DNA of 64,000 nt from Candidatus Neomarinimicrobiota bacterium (GTDB lineage: Bacteria; Fidelibacterota; SORT01), in NCBI GenBank assembly GCA_022573815.1, contig JACZTG010000003.1, forward strand, positions 1 through 64,000. The letters run 5' to 3'. The position numbers and the translations under genes are program-made. Under the pieces are notes generated by a model. That model had not been told where the DNA came from. It did not search any database and saw nothing but the letters and a program-made list of their open reading frames with translations. This document shows, one piece after another, positions 11,321 through 42,360 of this stretch; positions within the stretch are counted from its first letter, which is position 1; the number at the start of each line of letters is the position of its first letter.

Positions 11321-11349
11321 TTTGCAATATTATACTAAAATATTGCAAA
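11321..11349. promoter_or_regulatory. Perfect 11-bp inverted repeat over a -10 box (probable operator)
   Basis: TTTGCAATATT (11321-11331) and AATATTGCAAA (11339-11349) are perfect inverted copies around a 7-bp spacer. A good -10 hexamer, TATACT (11331-11336), lies at the centre of symmetry. A bound dimer would therefore block RNA polymerase. The site is 21 bp before the ATG of the TPR/Fis-HTH gene, which suggests autoregulation. It may also act on the divergent aldehyde dehydrogenase gene 130 bp away. Confidence 0.55.
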
Positions 11350-11369
11350 AACAGTGCGGTTTTAACTCT

Positions 11370-14319: not shown

Positions 14320-15705
14320 ATGGCGGAGCATAATTTTGATTTGGTGGTTTTAGGAGGTGGACCGGGAGGATATATCGCCGCTATCAGAGCAAGACAATTA
14401 GGGATGAATACAGCATTGGTGGAGGATAAACATCTCGGCGGAATATGTCTGAATTGGGGTTGCATTCCCACGAAAGCGCTGCTGAAAAGCGCGGAATTAT
14501 ATAACGAAATAAGTCACGCTTCCAAATTCGGCATAATAACGGACGCACCGGCTTTTGATATGCAGAGTATCGTCAAACGCAGCCGGCAAACCGCGCAACG
14601 TCTAAGCAAAGGTGTAGGATTTCTTATGAAAAAGAACGATGTGACTGTTTTTGAAGCGCGTGGTTCGCTGAATGCCGATGCTGATCTGGTTTTATCCAAT
14701 GGAGACCTGCTTAAAAGTAAGAATATTATTTTAGCTACGGGCGCACGACCGATAACCATACCGGGTATTGATGTGGACGAAAAGCAGATTATCACAAGCA
14801 GGACGGCAATGACTCTTGAGTCCATTCCTGAAAGCATTGCGATAATCGGCGGTGGCGCCATAGGTGTTGAGTTTGCCTACTTTTTCTCCACTTTTGGAGC
14901 GGATGTCACCATAATTGAAATGATGCCGCAACTTCTGCCGGTTGAAGATGAAGAAATAGCTCAAACAGTTGAAAAGAGTTTTATGAAAATGGGGATGAAA
15001 GTTAGAACTTCCACAGCGGTAAAAAAAGTAGAAAAAACTGACGGCGGATTGAATATCATTATCGAAAAAGAGGGGCAAGAGGAATCAATTTCGGCAGCGA
15101 TTGTCCTGAACGCCGTAGGCGTGAGGGGAAATATTGAGGATATAGGATTGGAAGAAGCAGGTGTGGAAAATAACGGTCAGTTCATTGAAGCTGACAGTCA
15201 GTGCCAAACTTCACGCAAAGGAGTATGGGCAATCGGAGATGTTATCGGGCCTCCGTTATTGGCTCATGTAGCATCGGCGGAAGGGGTTGCAGTGGCGGAA
15301 TTAATTGCGGGCAATCGGGAAAGCGGCATAGATTACAATGCGATACCCGGATGCACTTATTGCCAACCGCAAGTTGCGAGTTTTGGATTGACGGAAAAAG
15401 CAGCGCTTGAAAAAGGATTGGCGGTCAATGTGGGCCGTTTCCCTTTCAGAGCGAACGGTAAGGCGCTCGCTCTTGGAAATAGCGAAGGTATGGTCAAGCT
15501 GGTATTTAACAAAGAAGACGGAGAGCTTCTCGGCGCTCATATTGTGGGAGAGGACGCGACTGAGATGATCGGGGAATTGGTAATGGCAAGAACGCACGGC
15601 GCCACCTACGAATCTATATTGGAAACGATTCACGCTCATCCCACACTTGGCGAGTCGATTCCTGAGGCAGCCGGAGAGGCCTACGGTGAAGCGCTTAATA
15701 TCTAA
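14320..15705 (+). CDS. lpdA: Dihydrolipoyl dehydrogenase (E3)
   Basis: The 461-residue flavoprotein has an N-terminal FAD motif (VLGGGPGGYIAA), the redox disulfide C43/C48 in GGICLNWGCIPTKALL and a central NAD motif (AIIGGGAIGVEFA). The C-terminal His-Glu pair HAHPTLGESIPEA is that of pyridine nucleotide-disulfide oxidoreductases. It reoxidises dihydrolipoamide on E2 (or GcvH) with NAD. It sits directly before lipB and a fused E1 gene, so it most likely serves that 2-oxoacid dehydrogenase complex. No E2 gene is in the window. Confidence 0.93.
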   Translation: MAEHNFDLVVLGGGPGGYIAAIRARQLGMNTALVEDKHLGGICLNWGCIPTKALLKSAELYNEISHASKFGIITDAPAFDMQSIVKRSRQTAQRLSKGVGFLMKKNDVTVFEARGSLNADADLVLSNGDLLKSKNIILATGARPITIPGIDVDEKQIITSRTAMTLESIPESIAIIGGGAIGVEFAYFFSTFGADVTIIEMMPQLLPVEDEEIAQTVEKSFMKMGMKVRTSTAVKKVEKTDGGLNIIIEKEGQEESISAAIVLNAVGVRGNIEDIGLEEAGVENNGQFIEADSQCQTSRKGVWAIGDVIGPPLLAHVASAEGVAVAELIAGNRESGIDYNAIPGCTYCQPQVASFGLTEKAALEKGLAVNVGRFPFRANGKALALGNSEGMVKLVFNKEDGELLGAHIVGEDATEMIGELVMARTHGATYESILETIHAHPTLGESIPEAAGEAYGEALNI

Positions 15706-16441
15706 TTCGGACAGGTCAATTGAACACATCAGGCTGGGATACCAATCGTATCTGAAAGCCCTGAATTTGCAATCTCGTCTTATGGATTTGAAAAAGGATG
15801 GCTTTGATGATGATTTTCTGCTAACTGTGGAGCATCCTCACACTTATACAATAGGCTCCGCAGGCTCAAAAGAGAATTTGCTGGTGAATGATGACTACCT
15901 GAAAGCGAAAGGAATCGACCTGCATTTTTCGGGGAGAGGAGGGGATATTACCTATCACGGACCGGGTCAATTGGTGATTTATCCGATATTGGATCTGAAT
16001 CATTATTATAAAGACCTGCATCGGTATCTTAGAGATTTGGAGGAAGTGATAGTCCTTACTCTGAGAAGATTTGATATTGATGCCGGGAGAATTAAAGGTT
16101 TAACCGGAGTTTGGGTGGGCGAAAGAAAGCTCGCTTCAATCGGTATCAGGATGTCCAAATGGATTACAATGCACGGCAGTGCATTGAACGTTTCTCCCGA
16201 TCTAACTCTTTTTGACAATATCATTCCGTGCGGGATTAAAGATAAATCAGTATCCTCTATATCTGAAATTCTTGATAAACCGGTGCAAATTGAAAATGTG
16301 ATTCCCGAGTATTTGTCGGCGTTTTCGGAAGTTTTCGGAGTGACTCTGAACGAAAATAAAGACTCTTCTTATTGGATTATTTCTGAAACAGTTTCCAACA
16401 CAAATTATAATACCGAAGAAAAGATAACCGATGGCGTTTGA
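15686..16441 (+). CDS. lipB: Octanoyl-[ACP]:protein N-octanoyltransferase LipB
   Basis: The protein has the LipB blocks VEHPHTYTIGSAGSKENLL, FSGRGGDITYHGPGQLVIYP, GVWVGERKLASIGI and TMHGSALNV. The acyl-accepting cysteine is in IIPCGIKDK. LipB moves the octanoyl group from ACP to lipoyl domains, the first step of lipoate cofactor assembly. The start is taken as GTG at 15686, preceded 7 bp upstream by GGAGAGG; a TTG at 15647 would add 13 residues unlike the family. It overlaps the end of lpdA by 20 bp and the following E1 gene by 11 bp, so the three are coupled. Confidence 0.9.
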   Translation: MKRLISNSDRSIEHIRLGYQSYLKALNLQSRLMDLKKDGFDDDFLLTVEHPHTYTIGSAGSKENLLVNDDYLKAKGIDLHFSGRGGDITYHGPGQLVIYPILDLNHYYKDLHRYLRDLEEVIVLTLRRFDIDAGRIKGLTGVWVGERKLASIGIRMSKWITMHGSALNVSPDLTLFDNIIPCGIKDKSVSSISEILDKPVQIENVIPEYLSAFSEVFGVTLNENKDSSYWIISETVSNTNYNTEEKITDGV

Positions 16442-18479
16442 ACCAAAAGCAGATACGGCAACTAATCAAGACAATCAGCATAATTTTGAAAGACTGATCA
16501 AAGCTTACACCCTTATGCACACTTCACGGCAGCTCGACCATAAGATGCTTAATCTGATCAAGCAGGGAAAAGGTTTTTTCCATATAGGCGCGGCAGGTCA
16601 TGAAGCGGCGCAGCTTGCGGCAGCGCTGAATTTGAAGGGCGGCGAGGATTGGTCATTCCCGTATTACAGGGATATTGCGTATGTGCTTGGGCTGGGGATG
16701 ACACCGGAAGAGATAATGATGTGTTTCACGAGCCGGGCGGAAGATCCGAATTCCGGCGGCAGACAGATGCCTGCTCATTATGGGCATAAAGAGCTGAAGA
16801 TAGTTTCACAATCAAGTCCGACGGGAACACAATATCTTCAGGCTGTGGGTGTCGCATTGTCGCTTAAAAAACAGGGCAGCGAGAATGTCGTATATGTTTC
16901 TTCGGGAGAAGGAACCACAAGTCAGGGTGATTTTCATGAAGCGCTGAATTGGGCATCGCGAGAGAAACTTCCGGTCATTTTCTTTATAGAAAACAACAAA
17001 TACGCTATTTCAGTACATATATCGGAACAGACATCCGGAAGCTCTGTCTATGAAATGACAAAGGGTTATGAAGGACTGACGAGATATGAAATGGATGGAA
17101 CGGATTTCGAATCATCTGATAATCTAATGAAGGAAGTAGTAGCTAACGTCAGGCGGGGAAATGGACCTGCGTTAGTGGAAGCAGATTGTGTCAGGCTTAT
17201 GCCTCATTCGTCATCGGATGACCAGAAGAAATATCGCGATGAAGAAGAGCTCTCTTCAGATAGTAAGCGAGATCCGATAATCATATTAAAAGATTTCCTT
17301 TTACGGGAAAAAGCGCTGACAGAATCTCAAGACGATTCAATAAGCAGCGCTGCCGTAGCCGATGCGACCAGAGTCACAGAACTTGCGTTCACAAAGGAAG
17401 AAGCCGGAGCTGAAACAGCCGTAAAGTACGTTTTTGATGAGAGCGGAAAGGCGGATTCACTTGAATACGAAAAATCAGAACCGTCAGGCGAGCCTGTAGT
17501 AATAGTGGATGCGATCAACCATGCCTTGCATGAAGAGATGGACCGCGACCATAAAATAATAGTGTTCGGACAGGACATAGCGGATGGCAAAGGTGGAGTA
17601 TTTACCGTAACTAAAGGACTTTCCACTAAATTCGGGTCGGACAGGGTATTCAACAGTCCGCTTGCGGAAGCGAGTATTGTGGGGGTGGCAATCGGTTTAG
17701 CTTTGAACGGCTTTAAACCGGTAGTGGAGATACAATTTGCCGATTATGTGTGGACTGCAATGATGCAGATAAGGAATGAACTATCCACAATGCGGTACCG
17801 TTCCAATAACAACTGGGAATGTCCCGTTGTCATACGGATTCCATGTGGTGGATATATTCACGGTGGGCTTTATCACAGTCAGAACATTGAAGCGATATTC
17901 GCGCATCTGCCCGGCATAAAGATTTGTATGCCTTCCAATGCGGCGGATGCCAAGGGACTGCTGAAAACGGCAATCAGGGGTAAAGATCCGGTCATATATT
18001 TAGAGCATAAGGGGATTTATCGTCAGCCGTTCGCTAAATCACCTGAACCGGATGAAGATTATTTGGTTCCATTCGGTAAAGCAAAAATTGTCAGGGAAGG
18101 AAATGATCTAACCATCGTTACATACGGCGCGATGGTCAAACGTTCTCTTGATGCGGCTGATAAATTTAATCAGGAGTCAGGAGCTTCTATAGAGATCATT
18201 GATATCCGATCGATCGTACCGCTGGACCTGGATACCATCTTAACTTCGGTGGAAAAAACATCTCGACTGCTTATAGTACACGAAGACAGCATCTTTCAAG
18301 GATTCGGCGCCGAAATAGCGGCACAGGTTTCAAATAAAGGATTCAGTTTTTTAGATGCGCCTATCGGGCGCGTGGCGGCATTGCACACTCCGATTCCTTA
18401 TGCTCCAATCCTTGAAAAGCGGATATTGCCTGATATTGACGATATTTACGATGCTTTAAAGTCACTTTCGGAATATTGA
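16431..18479 (+). CDS. Fused alpha-beta E1 component of a 2-oxoacid dehydrogenase
   Basis: This 682-residue protein joins the E1 alpha subunit (about 1-310) and the E1 beta subunit (about 355-682). The alpha half has the thiamine diphosphate motif from VSSGEGTTSQGDFHEALN to the asparagine pair in FIENNKYAIS. The beta half shows VFGQDIADGKGGVF, EASIVGVAIGLALNG and PCGGYIHGGLYHSQ. Such fusions usually act on branched-chain or related 2-oxoacids. The reaction transfers the acyl group to lipoyl-E2. It overlaps lipB and follows lpdA, which supports a lipoate-dependent complex. No E2 gene is nearby, so it may borrow an E2 encoded elsewhere. Confidence 0.88.
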   Translation: MAFEPKADTATNQDNQHNFERLIKAYTLMHTSRQLDHKMLNLIKQGKGFFHIGAAGHEAAQLAAALNLKGGEDWSFPYYRDIAYVLGLGMTPEEIMMCFTSRAEDPNSGGRQMPAHYGHKELKIVSQSSPTGTQYLQAVGVALSLKKQGSENVVYVSSGEGTTSQGDFHEALNWASREKLPVIFFIENNKYAISVHISEQTSGSSVYEMTKGYEGLTRYEMDGTDFESSDNLMKEVVANVRRGNGPALVEADCVRLMPHSSSDDQKKYRDEEELSSDSKRDPIIILKDFLLREKALTESQDDSISSAAVADATRVTELAFTKEEAGAETAVKYVFDESGKADSLEYEKSEPSGEPVVIVDAINHALHEEMDRDHKIIVFGQDIADGKGGVFTVTKGLSTKFGSDRVFNSPLAEASIVGVAIGLALNGFKPVVEIQFADYVWTAMMQIRNELSTMRYRSNNNWECPVVIRIPCGGYIHGGLYHSQNIEAIFAHLPGIKICMPSNAADAKGLLKTAIRGKDPVIYLEHKGIYRQPFAKSPEPDEDYLVPFGKAKIVREGNDLTIVTYGAMVKRSLDAADKFNQESGASIEIIDIRSIVPLDLDTILTSVEKTSRLLIVHEDSIFQGFGAEIAAQVSNKGFSFLDAPIGRVAALHTPIPYAPILEKRILPDIDDIYDALKSLSEY

Positions 18480-18509: not shown

Positions 18510-20036
18510 GTGGCTAAGCTGCATGAACATCAGGGGAAAGTTCTCTTCAAAGAAGCGGGAATTCCAGTTCCGGAAGGTTCCCTGGCAAGCAGTCCCGACG
18601 AAGCAGCGGAGATTGCGAGTAAACTCAAATCTCCCGTTGTAATCAAGATGCAGGCATGGACTACGGGAAGAGCGGGGCTTGGAGGGATAATATTTGCGGA
18701 TTCTCCGAAACAGGCTCGGGACGGAGCAGCTGATATTCTTGGGAAAGAAGTAGAAAATTTTGTTGTTGAAAATGTGCTGGTAGAAAAGAAGCTGAATATT
18801 GAGAAGGAATTTTATGCGGGAATCGTGATTGATGACAAATCAAGAAAACCCGCCATGATATTTTCTTCCGTAGGCGGAACAGGGATAGAGGAGATAGCGC
18901 AAAAATTTCCCGATAAAATCTCACGAATGTCTATTGACGTTATTGAAGGATTAAAGGATTATCAGGCGCGGGAACTGGTGAAACGGACAGGACTAACCGG
19001 AAAACTGCAATTACGTATAGCGGGAATACTCGTAAAATTATTTAACTTAGCGCGGAAATATGAAATGCGGTCTGCTGAAATAAACCCGCTTGTTCTTACT
19101 GATGAAGATAAATTAATTGCCGCCGATAGCCGTATAACCATAGACGATTCGGCAGTTTTTAAACACCCGGAACTCGGAATTGAAATTGCGAGAGAGTTAG
19201 ATCATCCGCCTTCTGAATTGGATAAGATTGCATGGAATGTCGAGAAGGACGATTACCGCGGAACTTTCTATTTTATACAAATGGCTCAGGGTTTTTCAAT
19301 GGAGGAGCGTTACGTGGGATTTCACGGAGCGGGCGGCGGCGGTTCGATGATGTCAATGGACGCTCTTATGAATAAGGGTTTCAAACTCGCTAATTTTGTT
19401 GACACAAGCGGAAATCCTCCCGCGTCTAAAGTGTACAGAGCAGCGAAAATCATTCTCTCTCAAAAAAATATTGTCGGCTATTTCGGATCGGGTTCCGGGG
19501 TTGCATCGCAGGAGCAATTTCACTCTGCGAGAGGATTAGTTAAGGCGTTCAGGGAAGAAAATATTTCGATCCCTGTTGTCATTCGGCTTGGCGGAAATCA
19601 GGAAGATAAGGCAATTGAAATACTTACAAATTATACGGCAGACCTGCCCGCACCCGTCGAGGGCTACAAGAAAAATGACAGCGCCGATTTCTGTGCCGAC
19701 AGGATGAAAGCATTGGTGGATTCCTTCGATTATTCATCGGCAAATGGAGCGTCGTTTGTTCCTCCAAAAGCGGAAAAACCGTATTCATTTAAAACTCTCA
19801 CGGGAGAGATAACTTACGACCATGCCCTTTGTCTTGATTGCAAAGATAAACCTTGCATTGAATCGTGCGGTCCGGAAATACTAAAACTTGAAGATAATCT
19901 GCCCGTATTAGCCATCAGCGATGAAGATGCCGCAAAAGGAAAATGCACCGAGTGCTTAGCCTGCGAACAGGAATGTTACTTTCACGGGAACAAAGGCGCT
20001 TATATCAGCCTTCCGATAGAGGGATTAGTAAATTGA
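18510..20036 (+). CDS. ATP-grasp acyl-CoA synthetase large subunit (SucC/CcsA/AclB-like) with C-terminal 8-Cys ferredoxin domain
   Basis: Residues 1-400 match the beta subunit of succinyl-CoA synthetase and the large subunits of citryl-CoA synthetase and ATP-citrate lyase: MAKLHEHQGKVLFKEAGIPV, SAEINPLVL and FHGAGGGGSMMSMDAL. Residues 434-500 are extra. They hold CLDCKDKPCIESC (C441, C444, C449, C453) and CTECLACEQEC (C479, C482, C485, C489), enough for two [4Fe-4S] clusters. The start is GTG with GAGGGG upstream. The matching small subunit at 21020 is separated from it by a broken methyltransferase gene, and a citryl-CoA lyase-like gene follows. The most likely reaction is ATP-dependent CoA activation of citrate or a related acid. 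An Fe-S fusion is unusual for this family. Confidence 0.8.
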   Translation: MAKLHEHQGKVLFKEAGIPVPEGSLASSPDEAAEIASKLKSPVVIKMQAWTTGRAGLGGIIFADSPKQARDGAADILGKEVENFVVENVLVEKKLNIEKEFYAGIVIDDKSRKPAMIFSSVGGTGIEEIAQKFPDKISRMSIDVIEGLKDYQARELVKRTGLTGKLQLRIAGILVKLFNLARKYEMRSAEINPLVLTDEDKLIAADSRITIDDSAVFKHPELGIEIARELDHPPSELDKIAWNVEKDDYRGTFYFIQMAQGFSMEERYVGFHGAGGGGSMMSMDALMNKGFKLANFVDTSGNPPASKVYRAAKIILSQKNIVGYFGSGSGVASQEQFHSARGLVKAFREENISIPVVIRLGGNQEDKAIEILTNYTADLPAPVEGYKKNDSADFCADRMKALVDSFDYSSANGASFVPPKAEKPYSFKTLTGEITYDHALCLDCKDKPCIESCGPEILKLEDNLPVLAISDEDAAKGKCTECLACEQECYFHGNKGAYISLPIEGLVN

Positions 20037-21019
20037 AGAAATTTACCTCTGAAAAACTTGGACGTTTGGATCTCAGGAATGACTTACGAGAGAAAATTCT
20101 ACCGCTCTGTAGATTGAAAATGGGTGAAATTTGGGAGGATGGCATTTCGGGACACAAAGTTGGAGTTCTTGATGCGACGAGTATAGATGATGTTAACAGC
20201 ATTATGAATGGTGATAAAGCTACCTTAGCCGTGAATGACCCGCCATATAATGTCGCTGTGGGTAATGCCAACACGGCAAATTTATCAAAAATTGATATGA
20301 GCAAATATCTATCGTTTTCTGAAAAGTGGATAAAAAATGTCGTCTCGGTTATGAGAGAAAACTCTCATTTTTACTTATGGTCAGGAGCAGATCAGAGGGA
20401 CGATTTCCAACCTCTTCCTGATATTATGATTCTGCTTCGAAAATTTGAGGAACTTAAGTCGCGGAATCTGATCACAATGCGAAATCAGAGAGGATACGGC
20501 ACTCAGAAGAACTGGATGTGGGTTCGTCAGGAACTTCTGTATTATATTAAAGGTGAGCCGTAATTTAATGTTGATGCGGTTTACACGGATATACCCAAAA
20601 TATTGCGAGGTTATTATAAGAACGTTAAGGGCGAGATGACAGAAAATCTCCAACGGAGCAAGTCGAACAACATTCGAGCGGGAAATGTGTGGGTAGATAT
20701 TCAGCAGGTATTCTATCGTATGGAGGAAAATGTTCCCGGCTGCTACGCGCAAAAACCGCTGAAAGCGATAGAGCGTATAATTGAATCAGGAACGAACGAA
20801 GGCGATCTTGTCATTGATTTCTTCGCTCATTCCGGGACGACTCTGATAGCGGGAGAACTATTGAACCGAAAAGTTTATACTCTTGAATTAGACCCGATTT
20901 TCGCCGAACTGACCATCAGACGACTGGAAAATTACCGGAGCAACGGCAAGACAGGATGGCAGTGGAAGAATCCGTTTCCTGAATTAGAAGAGACTGAAGC
21001 ATTAGAAGAGGTAAATTAA
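20033..21019 (+). pseudogene. DNA methyltransferase (DPPY-type) interrupted by an in-frame TAA
   Basis: Reading from TTG at 20033 (overlapping the synthetase stop) gives one frame of 329 codons to TAA at 21017-21019, broken only by TAA at 20561-20563. The first part has the catalytic motif IV (AVNDPPYNVAVGNAN). The second part has the AdoMet-binding motif I (VIDFFAHSGTTLIAGELL) and a following acidic LELDP. This is the DPPY-before-FxGxG order of beta-class amino-methyltransferases. The frame and similarity continue across the stop (KGEP, stop, FNVDAVYTDIPK), so this is a single nonsense change rather than a frameshift. It lies exactly between the two subunit genes of an acyl-CoA synthetase, so it looks inserted. 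Recent inactivation, readthrough or a sequence error are possible. Confidence 0.75.
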
Positions 21020-21922
21020 TTGGCGATTTTGATTGACGAAAAGATGAGCGTGATAGTGCAGGGAATCACCGGACGTGAGGGAATGGCTCGGACTAAGCTG
21101 ATGATGGAATACGGCACGAATGTTCTGGCTGGTTGCACGCCGGGCAAAGGGGGTCAGGAGGTTTTAGGGCTTCCGGTTTATGATACTCTTTTAGAAGCAA
21201 CGGAAAAGCACGGCGTATTTGATGTCAGCGTGGTTTATGTTCCCGCTCCGTTAGTTAAAAACGCAGCGCTTGAGGCAATTGATGCGGGAATTAAACTTAT
21301 CGTTCTTGTCCCTGACAGGGTTCCTGTGTGGGATGTGATGGAGATCGCCCGAGCAGCGGAAGCGAACGGCGCGCAATTCGTCGGCCCCAACACGTTAGGC
21401 GTATTGAGCGTGGATAAAGCGGTTTTGGGAATGATAGGCGGTAACGCGAAATCAGCAAGGGAATGGTTCAAAAAGGGAAATGTGGGCGTTGCTTCCCGGA
21501 GCGGAGGAATTACTTCCTCCATCGGCTATTATCTCTGTCAGTCGGGTATCGGACTATCCACACTGGTACATGTGGGGGGAGACCCAATTGTGGGACTGCC
21601 ACATCCGAGTGTGATGGAGCTGTTTGAAACAGACAGTGAGACCGAAGCGGTGGTGATGTTCGGGGAAATCGGAACTTCACAGGAAGAACAGGTTGCCGAT
21701 TTGATTGAAAGCGGGAACTTTACGAAACCGCTCATTGCGTATATAGGCGGAAAAGCCGCCACATCGGGAACTCGATTCAGCCATGCGGGAGCCATAGTAG
21801 AGGGAAACAGCGGCACCCACGCAGGGAAGGTAAAACGTCTGAGAGAGGTAGGTGTCACTGTGGTTGATGAGTTCGGCGACCTGCCGGAAGCGACAAATAA
21901 ATTGCTAAAATCATTAGCATAA
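21020..21922 (+). CDS. Acyl-CoA synthetase small subunit (SucD/CcsB-like)
   Basis: The 300-residue protein matches the alpha subunit of succinyl-CoA synthetase. It has a CoA-binding Rossmann-like region (VQGITGREGMARTKLMMEYG), the VGGDPIVGLPHPSVMELF block and the phosphohistidine H255 in TRFSHAGAIVEG. It should form the catalytic pair with the ATP-grasp subunit at 18510, the histidine carrying phosphate between ATP and the acid. The TTG start follows directly on the methyltransferase stop. A citryl-CoA lyase-like gene comes 15 bp later, as expected if ATP-citrate lyase were split into its parts. The substrate could also be succinate, malate or a methylated relative. Confidence 0.82.
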   Translation: MAILIDEKMSVIVQGITGREGMARTKLMMEYGTNVLAGCTPGKGGQEVLGLPVYDTLLEATEKHGVFDVSVVYVPAPLVKNAALEAIDAGIKLIVLVPDRVPVWDVMEIARAAEANGAQFVGPNTLGVLSVDKAVLGMIGGNAKSAREWFKKGNVGVASRSGGITSSIGYYLCQSGIGLSTLVHVGGDPIVGLPHPSVMELFETDSETEAVVMFGEIGTSQEEQVADLIESGNFTKPLIAYIGGKAATSGTRFSHAGAIVEGNSGTHAGKVKRLREVGVTVVDEFGDLPEATNKLLKSLA

Positions 21923-21937
21923 TTTAGAGAATTTGAT

Positions 21938-22717
21938 ATGACAGAAGAAAAATGGAAAACAGCGATAACCGAAATTGAACCGAATAAAATTAAACTTCGG
22001 GGTTATCCGCTGGACGAGCTCATGGGAAACATCTCTTTTGCCGAGGCTGTGTACCTCGCCTTGAGAGGCGAACTTCCCACGCCTGAAGTCGGTAAGCTGA
22101 TAGACGCCATCTTAGTATCGTCTATAGACCACGGTGTAACACCGCCTTCGGCATTAGCAGCGATCAATTCGGCATCCACAGGCGCTCCCTTGAACGCCGC
22201 TGTGGCGTCGGGTATTCTGGCAATCAACAAATACCACGGCGGAGCGATAGAGGCTTGTATGGAGATGCTTCAGGCGGGGAAATCGCAAGTGGACAGCGGA
22301 AACTCTGCTCAGGAAGCGGCGAAAAATCTTGTGGAGGAATATCGGAATGCGAAGAAACGAATGTCGGGATTCGGACATCGTATTCATACCGATGATCCCC
22401 GCACCAAACGACTATTTGAATTAGCGGAAGAGGCGGGACAGTCCGGGACTTTCATTGAATTGATACGATCTATCCAATCCGAACTTGAGATTTCAGCAGG
22501 CAAAAAACTACCTATCAATGTGGACGGAGCAATTGCGGCGGTGTTATGTGAATTGGATTTCTGGACGAATCTTGCCAATGCCTTTTTCATAATGGCTCGT
22601 GTGCCCGGCTTGGTAGCTCACGCCGCGGAAGAACAGGAACGTCAGCGTCCCATGCGAAAAATAGACCCGGCGAACCATGAATACGACGGTCCTTCGGAAC
22701 GACACCTTGATGATTAA
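21938..22717 (+). CDS. Citryl-CoA lyase-like protein (citrate synthase fold)
   Basis: At 259 residues this is far shorter than true citrate synthases (about 430) and close to citryl-CoA lyase and the C-terminal domain of ATP-citrate lyase. The citrate synthase catalytic set is kept: H100 (KYHGGAIEA), H147 (SGFGHRIHTDDPRTKRL) and D196 (PINVDGAIAAVL), plus the conserved IDHGVTPPSALAA. It probably cleaves citryl-CoA to acetyl-CoA and oxaloacetate, or acts on a homologue such as methylcitryl-CoA. With the two synthetase subunits upstream it would make a three-part ATP-citrate-lyase-like system. A separate full-length citrate synthase is at 40777. Confidence 0.82.
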   Translation: MTEEKWKTAITEIEPNKIKLRGYPLDELMGNISFAEAVYLALRGELPTPEVGKLIDAILVSSIDHGVTPPSALAAINSASTGAPLNAAVASGILAINKYHGGAIEACMEMLQAGKSQVDSGNSAQEAAKNLVEEYRNAKKRMSGFGHRIHTDDPRTKRLFELAEEAGQSGTFIELIRSIQSELEISAGKKLPINVDGAIAAVLCELDFWTNLANAFFIMARVPGLVAHAAEEQERQRPMRKIDPANHEYDGPSERHLDD

Positions 22718-22734
22718 GAGGAGCAAATAATAAT

Positions 22735-23268
22735 ATGAAAGACGCTATCATTGCCATTTTACCGGAATTAGGCGAAATTTCATCTGTGGAATTACGAGAT
22801 AAAGTTGTTGGAGTCTGGGAAGAGGCGTTAACGAAAAAAAACTGGGACATCAGCACACTGAAACGAATGCCGTTTACATTGCTTGTGGATGATGTTAAAA
22901 TAAGTTTTGTGGAACACGTTCGGACGGTCTGCAAAATGTGCGTCGTTATGGAAGCGCAGCTGGTTGAGATGTATTCTGACAGAGTGAGTATTAATCATGA
23001 TTACCTCGTTGCCGGAGCGCTGCTTGCGGATGTTGGAAAGATATTCGAGTATGATGAAGAAGGCGATAAATTTGTTAAAAGCGAACAGGGAAAATATCTT
23101 CGTCACCCATTCACGGGTGTGGGGCTTTCTTTCAGGCATGACCTGCCTGATGAGGTGATGCATATAATCGCAGTGCATTCTAAGGAGGGCGAGGGATTCA
23201 AGCGAACGGCGGAGGCGATTATCTTTCACCATGCCGATTTTACTGATTTCGAGATTATAGGCGGATAG
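22735..23268 (+). CDS. HD-domain protein with a substituted HD motif
   Basis: The 177 residues resemble small HD phosphohydrolases: SFVEHVRTVCKM (H61), then INHDYLVAGALLADVGKIFEYD, RHPFTGVGLSF, HIIAVHSKEGEGF and IIFHHADFTDFE. The central HD pair reads AD (A98-D99), so one metal-ligand histidine is missing. GCG is two or more base changes away from any histidine codon, so a single sequencing error does not explain it. It may be non-catalytic, or use a different ligand. It lies 17 bp after the citryl-CoA lyase-like gene and ends the first uninterrupted part of the array. Its role there is unknown. Confidence 0.7.
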   Translation: MKDAIIAILPELGEISSVELRDKVVGVWEEALTKKNWDISTLKRMPFTLLVDDVKISFVEHVRTVCKMCVVMEAQLVEMYSDRVSINHDYLVAGALLADVGKIFEYDEEGDKFVKSEQGKYLRHPFTGVGLSFRHDLPDEVMHIIAVHSKEGEGFKRTAEAIIFHHADFTDFEIIGG

Positions 23269-23289
23269 TGAATATTATGAAATTTGATG

Positions 23290-23500
23290 AACCACCCCTT
23301 AATCCCCTCCTTGAAAAGTAGGGGACAATATGCAGAAAATATTGGTTCTTGATTCCCTCTCCTTTCTAAGGATGGGACACTGTGCAGATAATTTAGGAAG
23401 TAGAAAAATCGGAAAGAAAAGGAATCAAAGAGAAAAGAAATTGACTGAATAATTTGATGTTGAATTCCCCTCCTTTTTAAGGAGGGGGTAGGGGGTGGTT
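23290..23500. repeat. C/G-rich palindromic repeat cluster upstream of a DUF559 gene
   Basis: Three related units are seen. Unit 1 (23290-23340) starts AACCACCCCTTAATCCCC. Unit 2 (about 23348-23396) is a diverged direct copy (GATTCCCTCTCC ... GGGACACTGTGCAGATAAT against GGGGACAATATGCAGAAAAT). Unit 3 (23465-23500) is an inverted copy ending GGGGGTGGTT. Unit 3 contains a perfect 9-bp hairpin, CCCCTCCTT/AAGGAGGGG, with a 3-base loop (23467-23487). The cluster fills the gap between the HD gene and the DUF559 gene. Its G-rich right end (AAGGAGGGGG) may also act as a ribosome binding site. Confidence 0.7.
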
Positions 23501-23514
23501 AAAGGGCTCTCAAA

Positions 23515-23898
23515 GTGAAAATAATTAAATTAAATAAAAAAGATCAAAAAAGTAGAAGACGAGAATTAAGAAATAGCTCTACACTATGGGAACACAAATT
23601 ATGGAATCATCTAAAGAATTCTCAATTAGATGGACTCAAATTTCGGCGGCAACAAGGAATTGAAAACTATATAGTAGATTTTTATTGCCCTAAATTAAAA
23701 TTGATAATAGAAATTGATGGCGGTGGACATTATAAAACTGAAAACAGAGAAGCAGACAAAGTTAGAGAAAAAAACATTAGAACATGGGGATATAAAGTTT
23801 TGAGATATACAAATGTTGAAGTTCAACAAAATTTAATTGAAGTTGTTGAAGACATCAGAAGAAATTGTAATATCAAGAATGAAACTTTACCCAAATAG
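23515..23898 (+). CDS. DUF559 family endonuclease-like protein
   Basis: The 127-residue protein has the DUF559 layout: STLWEHKLWNHLKNSQLDGL, then KFRRQQGIENYIVDFYCP, LKLIIEIDGGGHY and WGYKVLRYTNVEV. The D...ExD arrangement (DFYC, IEIDGG) is that of the restriction-endonuclease/Vsr-like nuclease fold. The biological role of the family is not settled. It starts at GTG directly after a palindromic repeat cluster. It is more AT-rich than the metabolic genes around it, which suggests arrival by transfer. It interrupts the array between the HD gene and the LeuC-type gene. Confidence 0.8.
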   Translation: MKIIKLNKKDQKSRRRELRNSSTLWEHKLWNHLKNSQLDGLKFRRQQGIENYIVDFYCPKLKLIIEIDGGGHYKTENREADKVREKNIRTWGYKVLRYTNVEVQQNLIEVVEDIRRNCNIKNETLPK

Positions 23899-23912
23899 AA
23901 AGCGAGAATATA

Positions 23913-25163
23913 ATGGGGCAAACATTTGCAGAAAAGATGCTCTCAAAATACTCCGGCAGGAATGTTGTGCCGGGAGAGATAGTAGAAGTCAAACCTGATA
24001 TAGCGATGTCGCATGATAATACGGCGGCGATAAGCGGAACATTCGAGCAGCTGGGCGTGGATAAGTTGGACGACCCCGACAGGCATGTTATTGTCCTTGA
24101 TCATTGCTCTCCGCCTGCGAATGAGAAGTTCGCTCTCAATCATAAGATCACGCGTAACTTCGTAAAGAAACATGGAATAAAAAACTTTTTTGACTTGGAG
24201 GCGGGTATCTGTCATCAGGTCATAATAGAAAACGGGCTTTGCCTTCCGGGAACGATTATGGTGGGCGCGGATTCACATTCCACGACTTACGGGGCTTTCG
24301 GAGCGTTCGGTACAGGAATTGGACGTTCAGAGACGGCGGTTATAATGGCAACAGGTAAAATTTGGTTTAGAGTTCCCGAGACCATAAAAATAATCATCAA
24401 CGGCGAATTCCCTGAGGGAACGGGTTCGAAAGACCTGATATTGAAAATAGCCGGTGAGATAAGAGCGGACGGCGCATTATATAAGGCGATAGAATTTGCC
24501 GGCTCGACCATAGAAAATATGTCGGTTTCTTCCCGCATCGTGCTGCCGAACATGGCTGTTGAGCTTGGTGCCAAGATAGGCTACATGGAGCCTAACGAGG
24601 CAACATTGGAATATCTTGAAGGGCGGGCAAAGAAGGAATTTGAGGTAGTGGTATCCGATGATGATGCCAATTTTGAAAAGGTCATCGAATTTGATATAAG
24701 CGAACTGGAGCCGCAAATCGCTTGTCCGCATACGGTTGATAATGTTCATCCGATAACGGAGGTTACGGGAACCAAAATTGACGAAATATTCTTCGGTTCA
24801 TGTACGAATGCACGGCTCGAAGATTTTGAAATTGTAGCCGGAGTTATGAAAGGAAACAAAGTGCATAGAGACGTTCGGATGCTTGTATTCCCCGCTTCGA
24901 AGGACGTGTTTTTAGAGGCTATGCGTCTCGGATACGTGCAAACTCTTGCGGAATCGGGTGCGGTAATTATGAACACCGGATGCGGCCCATGTATGGGTAA
25001 CCATGAAGGAGTGCCTGCGGAAGGGGAAGTGGTTTTAGCTACGAACAACAGGAATTATCGTGGCAGACTTGGCAACAGGGATTCGGAAGTATATCTGTCA
25101 AGCCCGCTGGTGGCAGCGCACAGCGCCATTACGGGTACAATAACCGATCCGAGAACTCATTAA
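23913..25163 (+). CDS. Aconitase-family hydro-lyase large subunit (LeuC/HacA type)
   Basis: This 416-residue protein has the cluster ligands of the aconitase superfamily, one cysteine in FFGSCTNARLEDFEI and two in NTGCGPCMGNHEGV. It also has the substrate-binding blocks GADSHSTTYGAFGAFGTGIG and VLDHCSPPAN. Its length fits the two-subunit isopropylmalate/homoaconitate/dimethylmalate dehydratase group rather than one-piece aconitase. The small subunit follows after 6 bp. Next to citryl-CoA lyase-like and isocitrate-type dehydrogenase genes, it may isomerise citrate or a close homologue. Leucine synthesis is less likely because no leuA or leuB-type set is present. Confidence 0.85.
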   Translation: MGQTFAEKMLSKYSGRNVVPGEIVEVKPDIAMSHDNTAAISGTFEQLGVDKLDDPDRHVIVLDHCSPPANEKFALNHKITRNFVKKHGIKNFFDLEAGICHQVIIENGLCLPGTIMVGADSHSTTYGAFGAFGTGIGRSETAVIMATGKIWFRVPETIKIIINGEFPEGTGSKDLILKIAGEIRADGALYKAIEFAGSTIENMSVSSRIVLPNMAVELGAKIGYMEPNEATLEYLEGRAKKEFEVVVSDDDANFEKVIEFDISELEPQIACPHTVDNVHPITEVTGTKIDEIFFGSCTNARLEDFEIVAGVMKGNKVHRDVRMLVFPASKDVFLEAMRLGYVQTLAESGAVIMNTGCGPCMGNHEGVPAEGEVVLATNNRNYRGRLGNRDSEVYLSSPLVAAHSAITGTITDPRTH

Positions 25164-25169
25164 GGAGAT

Positions 25170-25670
25170 ATGATGGCTGTTACAGGCAAAGTTTGGAAAT
25201 ACGGGGATGACGTAAACACGGATGTGATATTCCCCGGGAAATATACATATACGGTGTCGGACCCGAATGAGATGGCGCAGCACGCGATGGAGGATCTGGA
25301 TCCTGAATTCGCGAAAAATGTAAAGGAAAACGACATAATTGTGGGAGGCAAAAATTTCGGATGTGGTTCCTCCCGGGAACAAGCTGCGGTTTGCATTAAA
25401 ATGTCGGGAATCGGAGCCGTCATCGCAAAGTCGTTCAGCAGACTTTATTTTCGCAATTGTATTAATACGGGGTTGCCGATGATAGTGAGCGCCGAAGCTG
25501 TGGATGCCATTGAGAACGGTGAGGAAATAACCGTGGATATGGATAGCGGCGAAATAACCTGTAAGGCGGGCGTTTTTAAATTCCCGCCGCTCCCTCCGGA
25601 AGTTAAGGGCATCTTCGATGACGGCGGACTTATCCCGCATACAAAAAAGATATTGGGAACGGATAAATAG
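25170..25670 (+). CDS. Aconitase-family hydro-lyase small subunit (LeuD/HacB type)
   Basis: The 166-residue swivel-domain protein has GGKNFGCGSSREQAAVCI and KSFSRLYFRNCINTGLP, typical of LeuD/HacB. The specificity loop, usually YLRT in isopropylmalate isomerases or YLV-type in homoaconitases, reads YTYT here (residues 25-28, FPGKYTYTVSDPNEMAQ) with an extra residue. The substrate therefore cannot be assigned by the usual rule. It is preceded by AAGGAG; ATG codons at 25170 and 25173 are both possible starts. It pairs with the large subunit directly upstream, and the gene is followed by the RAYT island. Confidence 0.85.
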   Translation: MMAVTGKVWKYGDDVNTDVIFPGKYTYTVSDPNEMAQHAMEDLDPEFAKNVKENDIIVGGKNFGCGSSREQAAVCIKMSGIGAVIAKSFSRLYFRNCINTGLPMIVSAEAVDAIENGEEITVDMDSGEITCKAGVFKFPPLPPEVKGIFDDGGLIPHTKKILGTDK

Positions 25671-25703
25671 TGTGGCGATTAGTCTAAACACTGTCATGTC
25701 CGT

Positions 25704-25770
25704 AACGCCGTGAACGGCGTTGATTTTTTATGTTTATTCTTGTTACCCAGCCATAAATGGCTGGGCTATA
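25704..25770 (+). repeat. REP-like palindromic unit, left copy
   Basis: Two hairpins occur in a row: AACGCCG TGAA CGGCGTT, then CCCAGCC ATAAAT GGCTGGG. They are joined by a T-rich spacer. The whole unit recurs on the same strand at 26453-26517 with a one-base deletion in the first stem and one substitution in the spacer. Confidence 0.8.
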
Positions 25771-25922
25771 GATCAGAGGTTTTAATTAGACTGTTTAATA
25801 ATGTATTATGTTAGTTAGGGATGCTATCTGAGGTTAAACAGATTGCTCAAATGTCAATCAAGGAGGTATTCGGCCCGGCTTGAAAGAAATTTTAATACTC
25901 GCAATAATCATAATGGGATTAG

Positions 25923-25942
25923 CCCAGCCGTTCACGGCTGGG
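25923..25942. repeat. REP-like hairpin, middle copy
   Basis: CCCAGCCG and CGGCTGGG form a perfect 8-bp stem with loop TTCA. The stem matches the second hairpin of the flanking units (CCCAGCC/GGCTGGG). The loop TTCA is the reverse complement of the TGAA loop of the first hairpin. Confidence 0.7.
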
Positions 25943-25966
25943 TAAAGAAGCTGATTATAATATTAT

Positions 25967-25982
25967 AGGGCGTTTACGCCCT
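25967..25982. repeat. Short palindrome just before the RAYT gene
   Basis: AGGGCG TTTA CGCCCT is a perfect 6-bp stem with a 4-base loop, followed by AAAAAG. It has the same GxCG-loop-CGxC layout as the other palindromes of this island but a different stem. It lies 30 bp before the probable start of the transposase gene. Confidence 0.6.
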
Positions 25983-26012
25983 TTAAAAAGTATAATTAAG
26001 GAGAAACAAAAA

Positions 26013-26471
26013 ATACCCCATACATTTCATAAGATTCTGCTTCATTACGTATGGTCAACCAAAAATCGTCTTCCATTGATTAATAAAAATCTGAGGACAA
26101 AGTTAATAGAACATATCAAGGAATATGCGAAAGAAAACGAAATCGAAATTGATACAATTAATGTTGTTTCAGATCATGTCCATCTGCTAACGACATTAAC
26201 ACCGGTTCAGTCGCCGTCTAAGGTCGTAAACTTACTTAAGGGGGAATCCTCAAATTGGATTAATAGTAATAATCTTAGTAAAGGAAAGTTCAGTTGGCAG
26301 GAGGGTTACGGTGTATTTTCAGTGTCATTTTCCAGTGTTGCAAGTATTAGGAAATATATAAATAACCAAATAAAACATCACAGAAAAGTATCTTATTTAG
26401 AAGAAGTGGATAATTTTCTAAAGGCGTATCATATTTATCAAAATAAAAGGGGAACGCGTGAACGGCGTTGA
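26013..26471 (+). CDS. REP-associated tyrosine transposase-like protein (Y1/IS200-like)
   Basis: The protein matches the Y1 transposase domain of RAYT proteins: PHTFHKILLHYVWSTKNRLP, then the metal-binding DHVHLL, GKFSWQEGYGVFSVS and IRKYINNQIKHHRK, which usually carries the active tyrosine region. Such enzymes cut single-stranded DNA at REP hairpins. Similarity begins at base 26013, where the codon is ATA, correctly spaced after AAGGAG. The first standard start, TTG at 26076, would remove 21 conserved residues. The stop codon lies inside the right palindromic unit. It is AT-rich compared with the neighbours. It may be recently disabled or use a rare start. Confidence 0.72.
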   Translation: MPHTFHKILLHYVWSTKNRLPLINKNLRTKLIEHIKEYAKENEIEIDTINVVSDHVHLLTTLTPVQSPSKVVNLLKGESSNWINSNNLSKGKFSWQEGYGVFSVSFSSVASIRKYINNQIKHHRKVSYLEEVDNFLKAYHIYQNKRGTRERR

Positions 26472-26517
26472 TTTTTTATGTTTATTCGTGTTACCCAGCC
26501 ATAAATGGCTGGGCTAT
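26453..26517 (+). repeat. REP-like palindromic unit, right copy
   Basis: Same strand and almost the same sequence as 25704-25770. The first stem has lost one base (AACGCGTGAACGGCGTT), and the second hairpin, CCCAGCC/GGCTGGG, is intact. It overlaps the last codons and stop of the RAYT gene. Confidence 0.8.
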
Positions 26518-26648
26518 GAAATCAGGCATAATTGTAAATGGTCAAGAATATTACAATATTATGAAAATGGAAAATTCAATTAACAGAGAGAAGAGGAATA
26601 GCTTCAAAATTAAATTCATTCTACACTGTTAAAAAGTAAGGAATATAA

Positions 26649-27767
26649 ATGGCAAAATATAAGATAGCATGGCTGCCGGGTGACGGCGTTGGAAAGGATG
26701 TAATGGAAGCGGCACGGATAGTGTTAGATAAAATTCAATTGGATGCTGAATATCTGCACGGTGATATCGGCTGGGAATTTTGGCGGACAGAGGGAGAACC
26801 ACTTCCCGACAGGACGATAGACTTGTTAAAAAGCACAGATGCCTGCCTTTTCGGAGCGATTACATCCAAACCGAGAGACGAAGCGCAGGATGATCTTATT
26901 CCCGAACTGCAGGGAAAAGGATTGGAATATTTTAGCCCAATCGTCCGATTGAGGCAGGAGTTTAATCTCAGGACTAACCTGCGTCCCTGCAAGGCATATA
27001 AAGGCAACCCGCTGAATTTTAAAGACGAAATTGACCTTATTGTTTTTCGTGAAAATACTGAAGGTCTGTATGTTGGAATTGAGTTCAATCCGATGAACGA
27101 GGAAGTGATGAACGCTCTTGTGGCAAACCATCCAAAGGCAAAAAGATTCGGTGATATTCCGTTAGAAGATATTGCTTTTTCCGCACGTATAATCACGAGA
27201 GAAGGCGCTCGAAATATTATTAGGGAGGGTTTCGAGTATGCGAAGGAATTCGGTTATAAAACTGTTACGTTGGTGGAAAAACCCAATGTCCTGAGGGAAA
27301 CCAGCGGTCTGGTGATTCGGGAGGGTAGGAAAATCGCGAAGGAATATCCTGGTATTGAACTCTGGGAGACGAACATTGACGCTATGATGATGTGGCTCAT
27401 AAAGAACCCGTTGGATTACGGCGTACTTGTAGCCACCAATATGTTCGGTGATATAATTTCCGACCTTTGTGCTCAATTAGTGGGAGGACTCGGTTTCGCG
27501 GCAAGCGGAAACATCGGAGACGATTACGCTGTTTTTGAACCAACACATGGCTCCGCTCCCAAATACGCCGGACAATTTAAAGTAAATCCAATGGCAATGC
27601 TCCTGACGACGAAGATGATGCTGAACTATCTCGGAGAATCTGACAAGGCAGACGCCCTTGAGAATGCCATCGCTGCCGTTATAGAAGAGGGAACCGTGCG
27701 CACTTATGATATGGGCGGTGAATCTTCAACTTTGGAAATGGCGGAAGCGGTGGCGGATAAACTCTAA
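26649..27767 (+). CDS. Isocitrate/isopropylmalate-type beta-decarboxylating dehydrogenase
   Basis: The 372-residue enzyme has the family blocks WLPGDGVGKDVMEAA, REFNLRTNLRP-like substrate arginines (RQEFNLRTNLRPCK), FRENTEGLYVG, TNMFGDIISDLCAQLVGG and EPTHGSAPKYAG. These enzymes oxidise a 2-hydroxy acid and remove the neighbouring carboxylate. The usual D/HKxN catalytic segment reads VEKPNVLRETSGL, so the exact substrate (isocitrate, homoisocitrate, isopropylmalate or a methylated analogue) is open. It has a good AAGGAA ribosome site. Placement after a LeuCD-type hydro-lyase fits the next step of a citrate-like pathway. It is separated from those genes only by the RAYT island. Confidence 0.85.
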   Translation: MAKYKIAWLPGDGVGKDVMEAARIVLDKIQLDAEYLHGDIGWEFWRTEGEPLPDRTIDLLKSTDACLFGAITSKPRDEAQDDLIPELQGKGLEYFSPIVRLRQEFNLRTNLRPCKAYKGNPLNFKDEIDLIVFRENTEGLYVGIEFNPMNEEVMNALVANHPKAKRFGDIPLEDIAFSARIITREGARNIIREGFEYAKEFGYKTVTLVEKPNVLRETSGLVIREGRKIAKEYPGIELWETNIDAMMMWLIKNPLDYGVLVATNMFGDIISDLCAQLVGGLGFAASGNIGDDYAVFEPTHGSAPKYAGQFKVNPMAMLLTTKMMLNYLGESDKADALENAIAAVIEEGTVRTYDMGGESSTLEMAEAVADKL

Positions 27768-27798
27768 TAATAATTTATTTTAGGAAATCACAATAAGT

Positions 27799-29181
27799 AT
27801 GTCCGATAAAACTATAGCGCGCCGGATGGCTGAATTTGCGCTTGAATTGCAATACGATGATCTGCCGTCTGAGGTAATTGAAGAGGTTAAGCGGTTTTTA
27901 TATGATTCAGTCGGTTGCGCATTAGGCGGGTTTAATACCCATGATGTGAAGGCGATGTTGGAGATTTATAGTGATATGGGCGGCAAACCCGAAGCTACTC
28001 TTTTTGGCAGCGGAGAGAAACTGCCTGCAGCTAACGCTACTTTATTGAACAGTCTTATGATTCGAGCGCTGGACTTCAACGACATCTACTGGAAAGAAGA
28101 TCCGTCTCATCCCTCGGACCTGATTCCTGCCGCATTGGCAATGGCTGAACGGCAAAACTCTTCCGCTAAAGAGCTTATAGTGGCAATCGTTCTTGCGTAT
28201 GAATTCGAGCAACGATTATGTCTTTTCGCCAAGCCGGGAGTGCGTGAGAGGAAGTGGCATCACGCTACGCTGACTCAATTCGTGTCGCCGATAGTGGCGG
28301 GCAGACTTCTCGGATTGGACGCCGAGCAGATGGAAAACGCTATTGGAATTTCCGGAGGACATAATTTTACTCCGGGTGCGGCTGCTGCCGGACAACTCTC
28401 AATGATGAAAAACACCGTTGACCCAATGGCAGTTCAAAGCGGAGTAATAGCTGCGCTTATGGCGGAGAAGGGCTTCACAGGAACGCGGGCGATTTTTGAG
28501 GGGAAGGAAGGGCTGATGGATATTCTCGGAGATGATTGGGACGAAGAAGCGCTTCTCGGCGGACTGGGCGAAAGTTTCAAGATACTTGAATGCTCGATGA
28601 AAGCGTTTCCTACCGAAGCGCTGACTCATTCTCATATTACATGCGCATTAAAAATTGTGCGGGATCATGATGTTTTGCCGGATGACATTAAGGAGATAAA
28701 GGTAACAACCATCGCCAGAGCGGTAGATATACTTTTTGACCCGGAAAAATATAATCCAAAAAGCCGTGAAACCGCAGACCATAGTTTACCGTATGTTATT
28801 GCGGCGGCTGTGGTGGACAGGAAGATAACCACTGACCAGTTCAGTGACGAGCGGATAGCCGACCCGAAAATTCGGTCGGTACTGCCGAAAATTGTCGGAG
28901 AAGCAAGCGAGGAGTTTGAGAAGATGTTTCCCGCTAAACAGCCGTCAAAGGTTGTGATAACTCTCAATGACGGCACTGCTTATACAGAGAAAGTGGATTA
29001 TCCCAAAGGTGATCCTCGCGAGCCGATGAGTCAGGATGATCTTGATGATAAATTTAAGGGATTAACGAGTTTGATTTTAGATGATGAGAGCCGGAGAAAA
29101 ATAAAAGATACCATATGGAACTTAGAATCGTTAAATAATGTGAGCGATTTAATGAACGATTTAAAGATTATGGAATTATAG
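27799..29181 (+). CDS. MmgE/PrpD family protein
   Basis: This 460-residue protein matches the MmgE/PrpD family: FLYDSVGCALGG near the N terminus, then the helical domain and RALDFNDIYW, ISGGHNF and MKAFPTEALTHSHI. Known members are 2-methylcitrate dehydratase and cis-aconitate decarboxylase, which act on citrate-like tricarboxylic acids. Its place 31 bp after an isocitrate-type dehydrogenase suggests it handles the same substrate class, perhaps as an alternative dehydratase or a side-branch decarboxylase. The precise reaction cannot be read from sequence. Confidence 0.85.
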   Translation: MSDKTIARRMAEFALELQYDDLPSEVIEEVKRFLYDSVGCALGGFNTHDVKAMLEIYSDMGGKPEATLFGSGEKLPAANATLLNSLMIRALDFNDIYWKEDPSHPSDLIPAALAMAERQNSSAKELIVAIVLAYEFEQRLCLFAKPGVRERKWHHATLTQFVSPIVAGRLLGLDAEQMENAIGISGGHNFTPGAAAAGQLSMMKNTVDPMAVQSGVIAALMAEKGFTGTRAIFEGKEGLMDILGDDWDEEALLGGLGESFKILECSMKAFPTEALTHSHITCALKIVRDHDVLPDDIKEIKVTTIARAVDILFDPEKYNPKSRETADHSLPYVIAAAVVDRKITTDQFSDERIADPKIRSVLPKIVGEASEEFEKMFPAKQPSKVVITLNDGTAYTEKVDYPKGDPREPMSQDDLDDKFKGLTSLILDDESRRKIKDTIWNLESLNNVSDLMNDLKIMEL

Positions 29182-42111: not shown

Positions 42112-42360
42112 CAATTCCTCCAAAACAACGACATTGAATTCTTTACTGATTATACTTCAAAACCCTGATTTAGTTTCGAATCCAAGCCGATAATTACAAT
42201 TTTCCTTACTCTGATTTTCATCTCAAGTAAGGACATTATTTCACACCCCCGACATGAGGTAGCCCTCTCGTGAGGCTAAGTTAAGCAAGTCTTATATTTT
42301 AATCAATAGGTGAACGGAAATAAATGATAAAAATTAAAAGATGCTTAAGGAAATACTATT

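Follow-up and report, generated by a model that had tools for sequence, protein, structure and literature searches.

The window analysed here is a 64,000-nucleotide stretch of contig JACZTG010000003.1 from a Neomarinimicrobiota metagenome-assembled genome (MAG; G000), and its forward strand carries, at positions 18510-29181, a gene module that is conserved and uncharacterised. The module encodes a SucC-like ATP-grasp subunit with a ferredoxin-like tail (SucC-Fd), a SucD-like subunit, a citryl-CoA lyase, an HD-domain protein, a LeuC/LeuD-type hydro-lyase (LeuCD-A), a dehydrogenase of the isocitrate dehydrogenase (IDH) family and an MmgE/PrpD-family protein. We regard a citryl-CoA-linked citrate arm, a new version of a known kind of route, as its most likely role, and the use of a new acid is possible. 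We place slightly above even the probability that the cluster is, as its sequences suggest, a free-standing and reversible arm that connects acetyl-CoA and oxaloacetate with 2-oxoglutarate through citryl-CoA. Citrate is favoured because of the family of the lyase, a borderline match to a citrate-binding domain, a SucD-lyase fusion and the existence of genomes without alternatives. The host genome measures 2.39 Mb, is 96% complete and has Ca. Neomarinimicrobiota as its nearest named genomes. All open reading frames (ORFs) of the cluster, which the first-pass annotation had described as a one-strand set of SucC-like, SucD-like, lyase, LeuC/LeuD, dehydrogenase and MmgE genes, are found on the forward strand with mostly short gaps; that gene list held for the main enzymes and omitted the ferredoxin tail, the HD gene, a methyltransferase, a DUF559 gene and an IS200-type transposase.

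In the proposed route, the lyase would interconvert acetyl-CoA plus oxaloacetate and citryl-CoA, and the SucC-Fd/SucD complex would interconvert citryl-CoA, ADP and Pi with citrate, CoA and ATP via its phosphohistidine. Citrate would be dehydrated to cis-aconitate by the MmgE/PrpD protein, or in other phyla by a second LeuC/LeuD pair (LeuCD-B), and LeuCD-A would hydrate cis-aconitate to isocitrate. The IDH-family enzyme would then oxidatively decarboxylate isocitrate to 2-oxoglutarate, which may be taken further by a 2-oxoacid:ferredoxin oxidoreductase or dehydrogenase. Since no thioester would be wasted, the route could operate in both directions: synthesis of citrate and 2-oxoglutarate would yield ATP, and cleavage of citrate would consume it. 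Our inference extends to the substrates, to the sequence of the dehydratase and hydratase steps, and to reversibility and direction.

A scan for the lyase over 84,980 species genomes returned 57 loci. The order SucC-Fd, SucD, lyase, HD, LeuC, LeuD and IDH is shared by Neomarinimicrobiota, Chloroflexota, Aminicenantes and Acidobacteriota, with or without MmgE; KSB1 and BMS3Bbin03 carry the block minus LeuCD-A, and parts of it occur in Sumerlaeia, Planctomycetota, WOR-3 and Zixibacteria. The neighbourhood comparison that had been proposed as a check thus reveals a block conserved across several phyla, a recurrence that places the gene order far from chance. Within Neomarinimicrobiota the lyase is patchy (5/41 genomes). 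We found no description of the cluster in the open-access literature. Among 52,515 MAGs, a survey that relied on the Hydrogenobacter CCS/CCL genes assigned 10 to that type, and it names none of the phyla of the cluster for it (PMC9802188).

The lyase is the sole cluster protein that reaches a specific model (NF004869, citryl-CoA lyase, 277 bits over a cut-off of 212); the others miss every equivalog cut-off. Its best PDB match is the citryl-CoA lyase 6hxp with 208 bits; citrate synthases reach ~75 bits and ATP-citrate lyases (ACLs) 62. The catalytic residues of the citrate-synthase type (H65, H100, H147, R155, D196 and R221) are conserved, in agreement with the original assignment as a citryl-CoA lyase. 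SucD and the lyase are separate chains in the window, whereas two Anaerolineae (L095:8918-10744 and L124), and these only, encode a 609-aa SucD-lyase fusion beside SucC-Fd, which is apparently an independent counterpart of the AclB fusion. This fusion, together with the borderline Citrate_bind match described below, supports the proposal that the genes form a single functional set around a split system resembling ATP-citrate lyase. Citryl-CoA lyases also stand alone, with no SucC-Fd, in Acidobacteriota and Zixibacteria (L085, L091, L092 and L108-L115), and those of Zixibacteria adjoin genes for VorB-type oxidoreductases.

The SucC-like subunit matches ATP-grasp_2 (E 3e-52), and both synthetase subunits fall below their equivalog cut-offs (SucC 258 bits vs 370; SucD 296 vs 336). 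In quick trees (LG+G4, used for SucC and IDH), the SucC-Fd proteins form a clade outside canonical SucC (n=30; SH-like approximate likelihood-ratio test, SH-aLRT, 100) whose stem measures 1.8 changes per site. At the position of the acyl-site loop NIFGGI of succinyl-CoA synthetase (SCS), the cluster SucC has a conserved YFGSGSGVASQEQ instead. In its carboxylate-binding domain, Pfam Citrate_bind gives a borderline match (E 8e-6 to 5e-7) and Ligase_CoA none, and PF00549 is absent; the reverse holds for E. coli SucC and the canonical SucC of the host, which match Ligase_CoA and not Citrate_bind. PF16114 scores 26.0-29.8 bits in six relatives, straddling the cut-off of 26.8, and is absent in canonical SucC. 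The phosphohistidine claimed for SucD, His255, is conserved in 36 relatives.

The tail of SucC-Fd (residues 441-489) is of the 2x[4Fe-4S] ferredoxin type with eight cysteines, nearly all of which are conserved among the relatives. Most of them are lost in L097 and L101, so that the tail is unlikely to be needed for catalysis; it may have a redox-sensing or tethering role. The tail fold region itself persists in these two proteins (L097:7564-9057 and L101:6819-8384). In G053, a second SucC-like gene (C9:17552-19092) lies beside a separate ORF with 39% identity to the ferredoxin tail, which represents an unfused version.

LeuC keeps the [4Fe-4S] ligands C297, C357 and C360 (SCTN...CGPC). LeuC and LeuD score below the cut-offs of isopropylmalate isomerases (LEU2 460 vs 611; leud 187 vs 246) and of homoaconitases (HacA_Meth 502 vs 550; HacB2_Meth 172 vs 230), and the specificity loop of type A LeuD, GKYTYT/S, is one residue longer than those of 3vba, 1v7l and 2pkp. 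An MmgE orthologue (identity 49% or more) is present in 9/21 genomes and the LeuCD-B pair in 12/21, with none holding both and none neither; G015 was only partly sampled in this count, and the absence of LeuCD-B in G000 and G015 is drawn from other searches of those genomes. The naive probability of such exclusivity is 3e-6, though the genomes are related. Mapped on the IDH tree, the swap requires three changes or more, and it therefore probably took place more than once. This mutual replacement implies two hydro-lyase steps; most simply, MmgE or LeuCD-B would carry out the dehydration, and LeuCD-A or an aconitase the hydration that follows. Canonical aconitases are present in three genomes that lack LeuCD-A (G041-G043). 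E. coli PrpD in its wild-type form dehydrates citrate (PMC9468356), and the isomerisation of homocitrate takes two enzymes in fungi and Thermus (PMC3556520). The nearest PDB matches of MmgE (115 bits) are cis-aconitate decarboxylases, and we judged itaconate formation improbable because a decarboxylase could not swap with a LeuCD hydro-lyase. A LeuC upstream of the cluster in KSB1 was considered as type B and rejected, since it groups with the LeuC on contig C2 of the host.

The dehydrogenase carries the motif SPIVRLRQ...RPCKAY.GNPLN and an inserted KP..EA..EL.P.L.GKGL segment. The cluster dehydrogenases form a clade (n=28; SH-aLRT 100) apart from LeuB, Icd and NAD-IDH, and the window protein scores below the IDH cut-off (NF006529, 290 vs 510). 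With the sub-cut-off scores of LeuC and LeuD, this clade agrees with the earlier view that the hydro-lyase and dehydrogenase lie outside the standard families.

The genome content of the carriers was assessed by protein-family searches. Eight of 19 carriers (G044, G046, G048, G049, G051, G053, G059 and G063) have neither a full-length Si-type citrate synthase nor a full-length single-chain aconitase, and all their Iso_dh proteins are of the cluster type or LeuB, Re-citrate synthase being outside the search; G046, G049 and G053 have no Iso_dh or aconitase-fold genes other than those of the cluster. G063 is a closed Zixibacteria chromosome, which is without SucC-Fd and has its genes scattered, and the other carriers are MAGs of unreported completeness. 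The argument from the absence of the canonical enzymes is strong but not complete. In some of these carriers the cluster may be the means to make or split citrate. A new acid as substrate, which the first-pass annotation had entertained, is not established, and the eight carriers favour citrate. Ferredoxin oxidoreductases of the POR/KOR family are present in 12/12 carriers tested (in the host, POR_N at C3:78450 and C16:27167), and 2-oxoacid:acceptor oxidoreductase genes adjoin the cluster in Anaerolineales, which is consistent with a 2-oxoacid product.

Several observations weigh against the citrate assignment. SucD scores 286 bits to the SCS alpha subunit vs 163 to Hydrogenobacter thermophilus CcsB, and SucC scores 216 to SCS vs 128 to CcsA. 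The dehydrogenase has S-P-I-V-x-L-R in place of the S-x-N-x-x-x-R of IDH, and its best score is with the homoisocitrate model AksF2 (334 vs a cut-off of 540; AksF 282 vs 500), while the scores of LeuC and LeuD are homoaconitase-like, below cut-off. Zixibacteria keep the lyase and not SucC-Fd. Canonical citrate synthase, aconitase and IDH are already encoded in the host and in about seven further carriers, where a second citrate arm must serve a purpose of its own. In the host, a full-length citrate synthase outside the module lies in the same window (40777..42123, - strand) and exceeds the TIGR01793 cut-off, and aconitase (NF005558, 958 vs 612), NADP-IDH (TIGR00183, 675 vs 567) and SucD (460 vs 336) are likewise above theirs; LeuB (405 vs 393) and another LeuC are also present. 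With this canonical set of citrate synthase, aconitase, IDH and SucCD in place, the cluster is an extra set in the host. A Foldseek search with the SucC model ranks SCS first, CcsA 18 and ACL from 26, and was set aside as a substrate guide because it is non-discriminating.

It is possible, though rather improbable, that the module handles another tricarboxylate through an ATP-coupled CoA thioester alongside the tricarboxylic acid (TCA) cycle. Such a role would explain why the host and others keep both sets, and the leaning of the dehydrogenase and of LeuC/LeuD towards homoisocitrate dehydrogenase and homoaconitase models, below cut-off in each case, points the same way, as does the LeuD loop GKYTYT, unlike that of isopropylmalate isomerase or homoaconitase. 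A separate dehydratase and hydratase are typical of homocitrate (PMC3556520) and methylcitrate. On the other side, this reading would leave the eight carriers without any route to 2-oxoglutarate through (Si) citrate synthase, aconitase and IDH. The acid could be homocitrate, made from acetyl-CoA and 2-oxoglutarate and leading to 2-oxoadipate; enzymes of the citrate-synthase fold, however, are generally known to use oxaloacetate as the acceptor, which argues against this variant. It could also be an alkylcitrate, made for example from propionyl-CoA and oxaloacetate; hydration would then take place at the carbon without the substituent and give a product open to oxidation by a dehydrogenase of the homoisocitrate type. 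An ordinary methylcitrate cycle is excluded in the host family, where PF13714 is below cut-off in G000, G001 and G002 and no PrpB exceeds it, and in G046, G049, G053, G054 and G063, in which a PrpB-type methylisocitrate lyase is absent or below cut-off.

A purely reductive use is unlikely: the module would cleave citrate, in a reductive TCA cycle or for an ATP-driven supply of acetyl-CoA, and would oppose the oxidative citrate synthase of the cell. Hydrogenobacter, in which CCS/CCL serve citrate cleavage, provides the precedent (PMC9802188, PMC12743299); the POR/KOR enzymes of all 12 carriers tested, the host included, fit this direction, and the coexistence of both sets would be explained. 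Carriers without citrate synthase, however, would need oxidative use or 2-oxoglutarate made from succinyl-CoA. Each protein does belong to a broad known superfamily, as spare SucCD, LeuCD and LeuB copies that are adjacent by chance would; yet the gene order is conserved across phyla, the separate SucC and IDH clades are strongly supported, the cluster copies lie under the equivalog cut-offs that canonical copies of the same genome exceed, and SucD is fused with the lyase in two Anaerolineae. Ordinary paralogues are thus highly improbable. The first-pass annotation had stated that firm placement in ordinary SucCD, LeuCD and LeuB clades with leucine or TCA neighbours would end the idea of a new pathway; trees, cut-offs and conserved neighbours lead us to reject ordinary leucine or TCA paralogues.

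Table 1. Genes of the module and adjoining genes in the window.
Feature	Coordinates	Strand	Remark
Dihydrolipoyl dehydrogenase (Lpd) and LipB	14320..16441	+	Adjoining operon, upstream
Fused 2-oxoacid dehydrogenase E1 alpha/beta	16431..18479	+	Adjoining operon, directly upstream
SucC-Fd, SucC-like ATP-grasp acyl-CoA synthetase large subunit with C-terminal ferredoxin-like tail	18510..20036	+
N6/N4 DNA methyltransferase between SucC and SucD	19943..21019	+	Lineage-specific, outside pathway
SucD-like small subunit	21020..21922	+	Phosphohistidine His255
Citryl-CoA lyase	21938..22717	+	NF004869 match
HD-domain protein, conserved module member	22735..23268	+	HD doublet reads AD
DUF559 endonuclease-like ORF between HD gene and LeuC	23515..23898	+	Lineage-specific, outside pathway
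LeuC-type hydro-lyase large subunit, type A clade	23913..25163	+
LeuD-type hydro-lyase small subunit, type A	25170..25670	+	Loop GKYTYT
IS200-like Y1 transposase between LeuD and dehydrogenase	26076..26471	+	Host only among relatives compared
Iso_dh beta-decarboxylating dehydrogenase, isocitrate/isopropylmalate family, new subfamily	26649..27767	+
MmgE/PrpD-family protein, proposed tricarboxylate dehydratase	27799..29181	+	H104, K268, H277 region

The model of the HD protein adopts the HD fold (predicted local distance difference test, pLDDT, 93) with YhaM as its best PDB match; this YhaM-like fold does not indicate a function. Among the HD-protein loci, which include L104:10781-11323, every carrier of the MmgE type has AD as the doublet and every carrier of the LeuCD-B type has HD; by sequence, the carriers that use MmgE seem to have lost the metal site. 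HD-to-AD is one change with one origin on the HD tree, and we therefore do not take its match with MmgE as independent evidence.

Three genes interrupt the operon. The transposase and the DUF559 ORF are missing in some close relatives (the latter is seen in three family members and is absent in G004), and the methyltransferase is missing in G015, a more distant Neomarinimicrobiota genome, which identifies all three as insertions. The methyltransferase gene overlaps the end of SucC by 94 bp and contains an in-frame TAA at 20561-20563, which reflects decay or an assembly error; its reading frame is open in G001, G002 and G004. The DUF559 and methyltransferase genes may have entered the operon together as a restriction-like pair. 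E1, Lpd and LipB, which had been read as leading into the array, do lie directly upstream; their adjoining position is found in the host family only (Lpd and LipB in KSB1 too) and not in most other phyla, and they were rejected as core members since their association with the module is not conserved. At the start of the array (11322-12716), a TPR protein with a C-terminal Fis-type helix-turn-helix is a possible regulator.

If the citrate arm is correct, several poorly cultured phyla would make or split citrate without loss of thioester energy, and the apparently missing section of the TCA cycle in Chloroflexota and Aminicenantes MAGs would be filled. The module would contribute a new ferredoxin-tailed synthetase, a two-enzyme replacement of aconitase and a new IDH subfamily, and its genes would mark reversible citrate metabolism in organisms that a survey based on Hydrogenobacter genes would overlook. 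The module would also represent, in living organisms, the state proposed as ancestral to ATP-citrate lyase, and would add a second SucD-lyase fusion of apparently independent origin.

The cluster pair shares the fold, the ATP-grasp and the phosphohistidine of SucCD, although YFGSGSGVASQ replaces the NIFGGI acyl-site loop. ACL (AclA/AclB, ACLY) has the same domain inventory, the acyl domain of the cluster SucC being Citrate_bind-like at scores around the cut-off, and the AclA/AclB layout is reproduced by the Anaerolineae fusion next to SucC-Fd; the cluster differs in that it is unfused in most carriers and has a ferredoxin tail not found in ACL. H. thermophilus CcsAB and Ccl likewise consist of a separate ATP-grasp subunit, a SucD-like subunit and a lyase of the citrate-synthase fold, and Ccl and the cluster lyase belong to the same family. 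In contrast to CcsAB, the cluster SucC and SucD are nearer to SCS, carry the ferredoxin tail and are encoded alongside their own hydro-lyases and dehydrogenase. The 2-methylcitrate cycle (PrpC, PrpD, AcnB and PrpB) also employs a separate PrpD-family dehydratase and an aconitase-fold hydratase; however, it ends in the PrpB lyase, where the cluster has a beta-decarboxylating dehydrogenase. With HacAB and LeuCD the cluster shares the two-subunit aconitase fold and the [4Fe-4S] ligands, whereas the GKYTYT loop is its own, the loop of isopropylmalate isomerase or homoaconitase being shorter by one residue. Isocitrate and homoisocitrate dehydrogenases (PF00180) have the fold and catalytic core in common with the cluster enzymes, which form their own clade.

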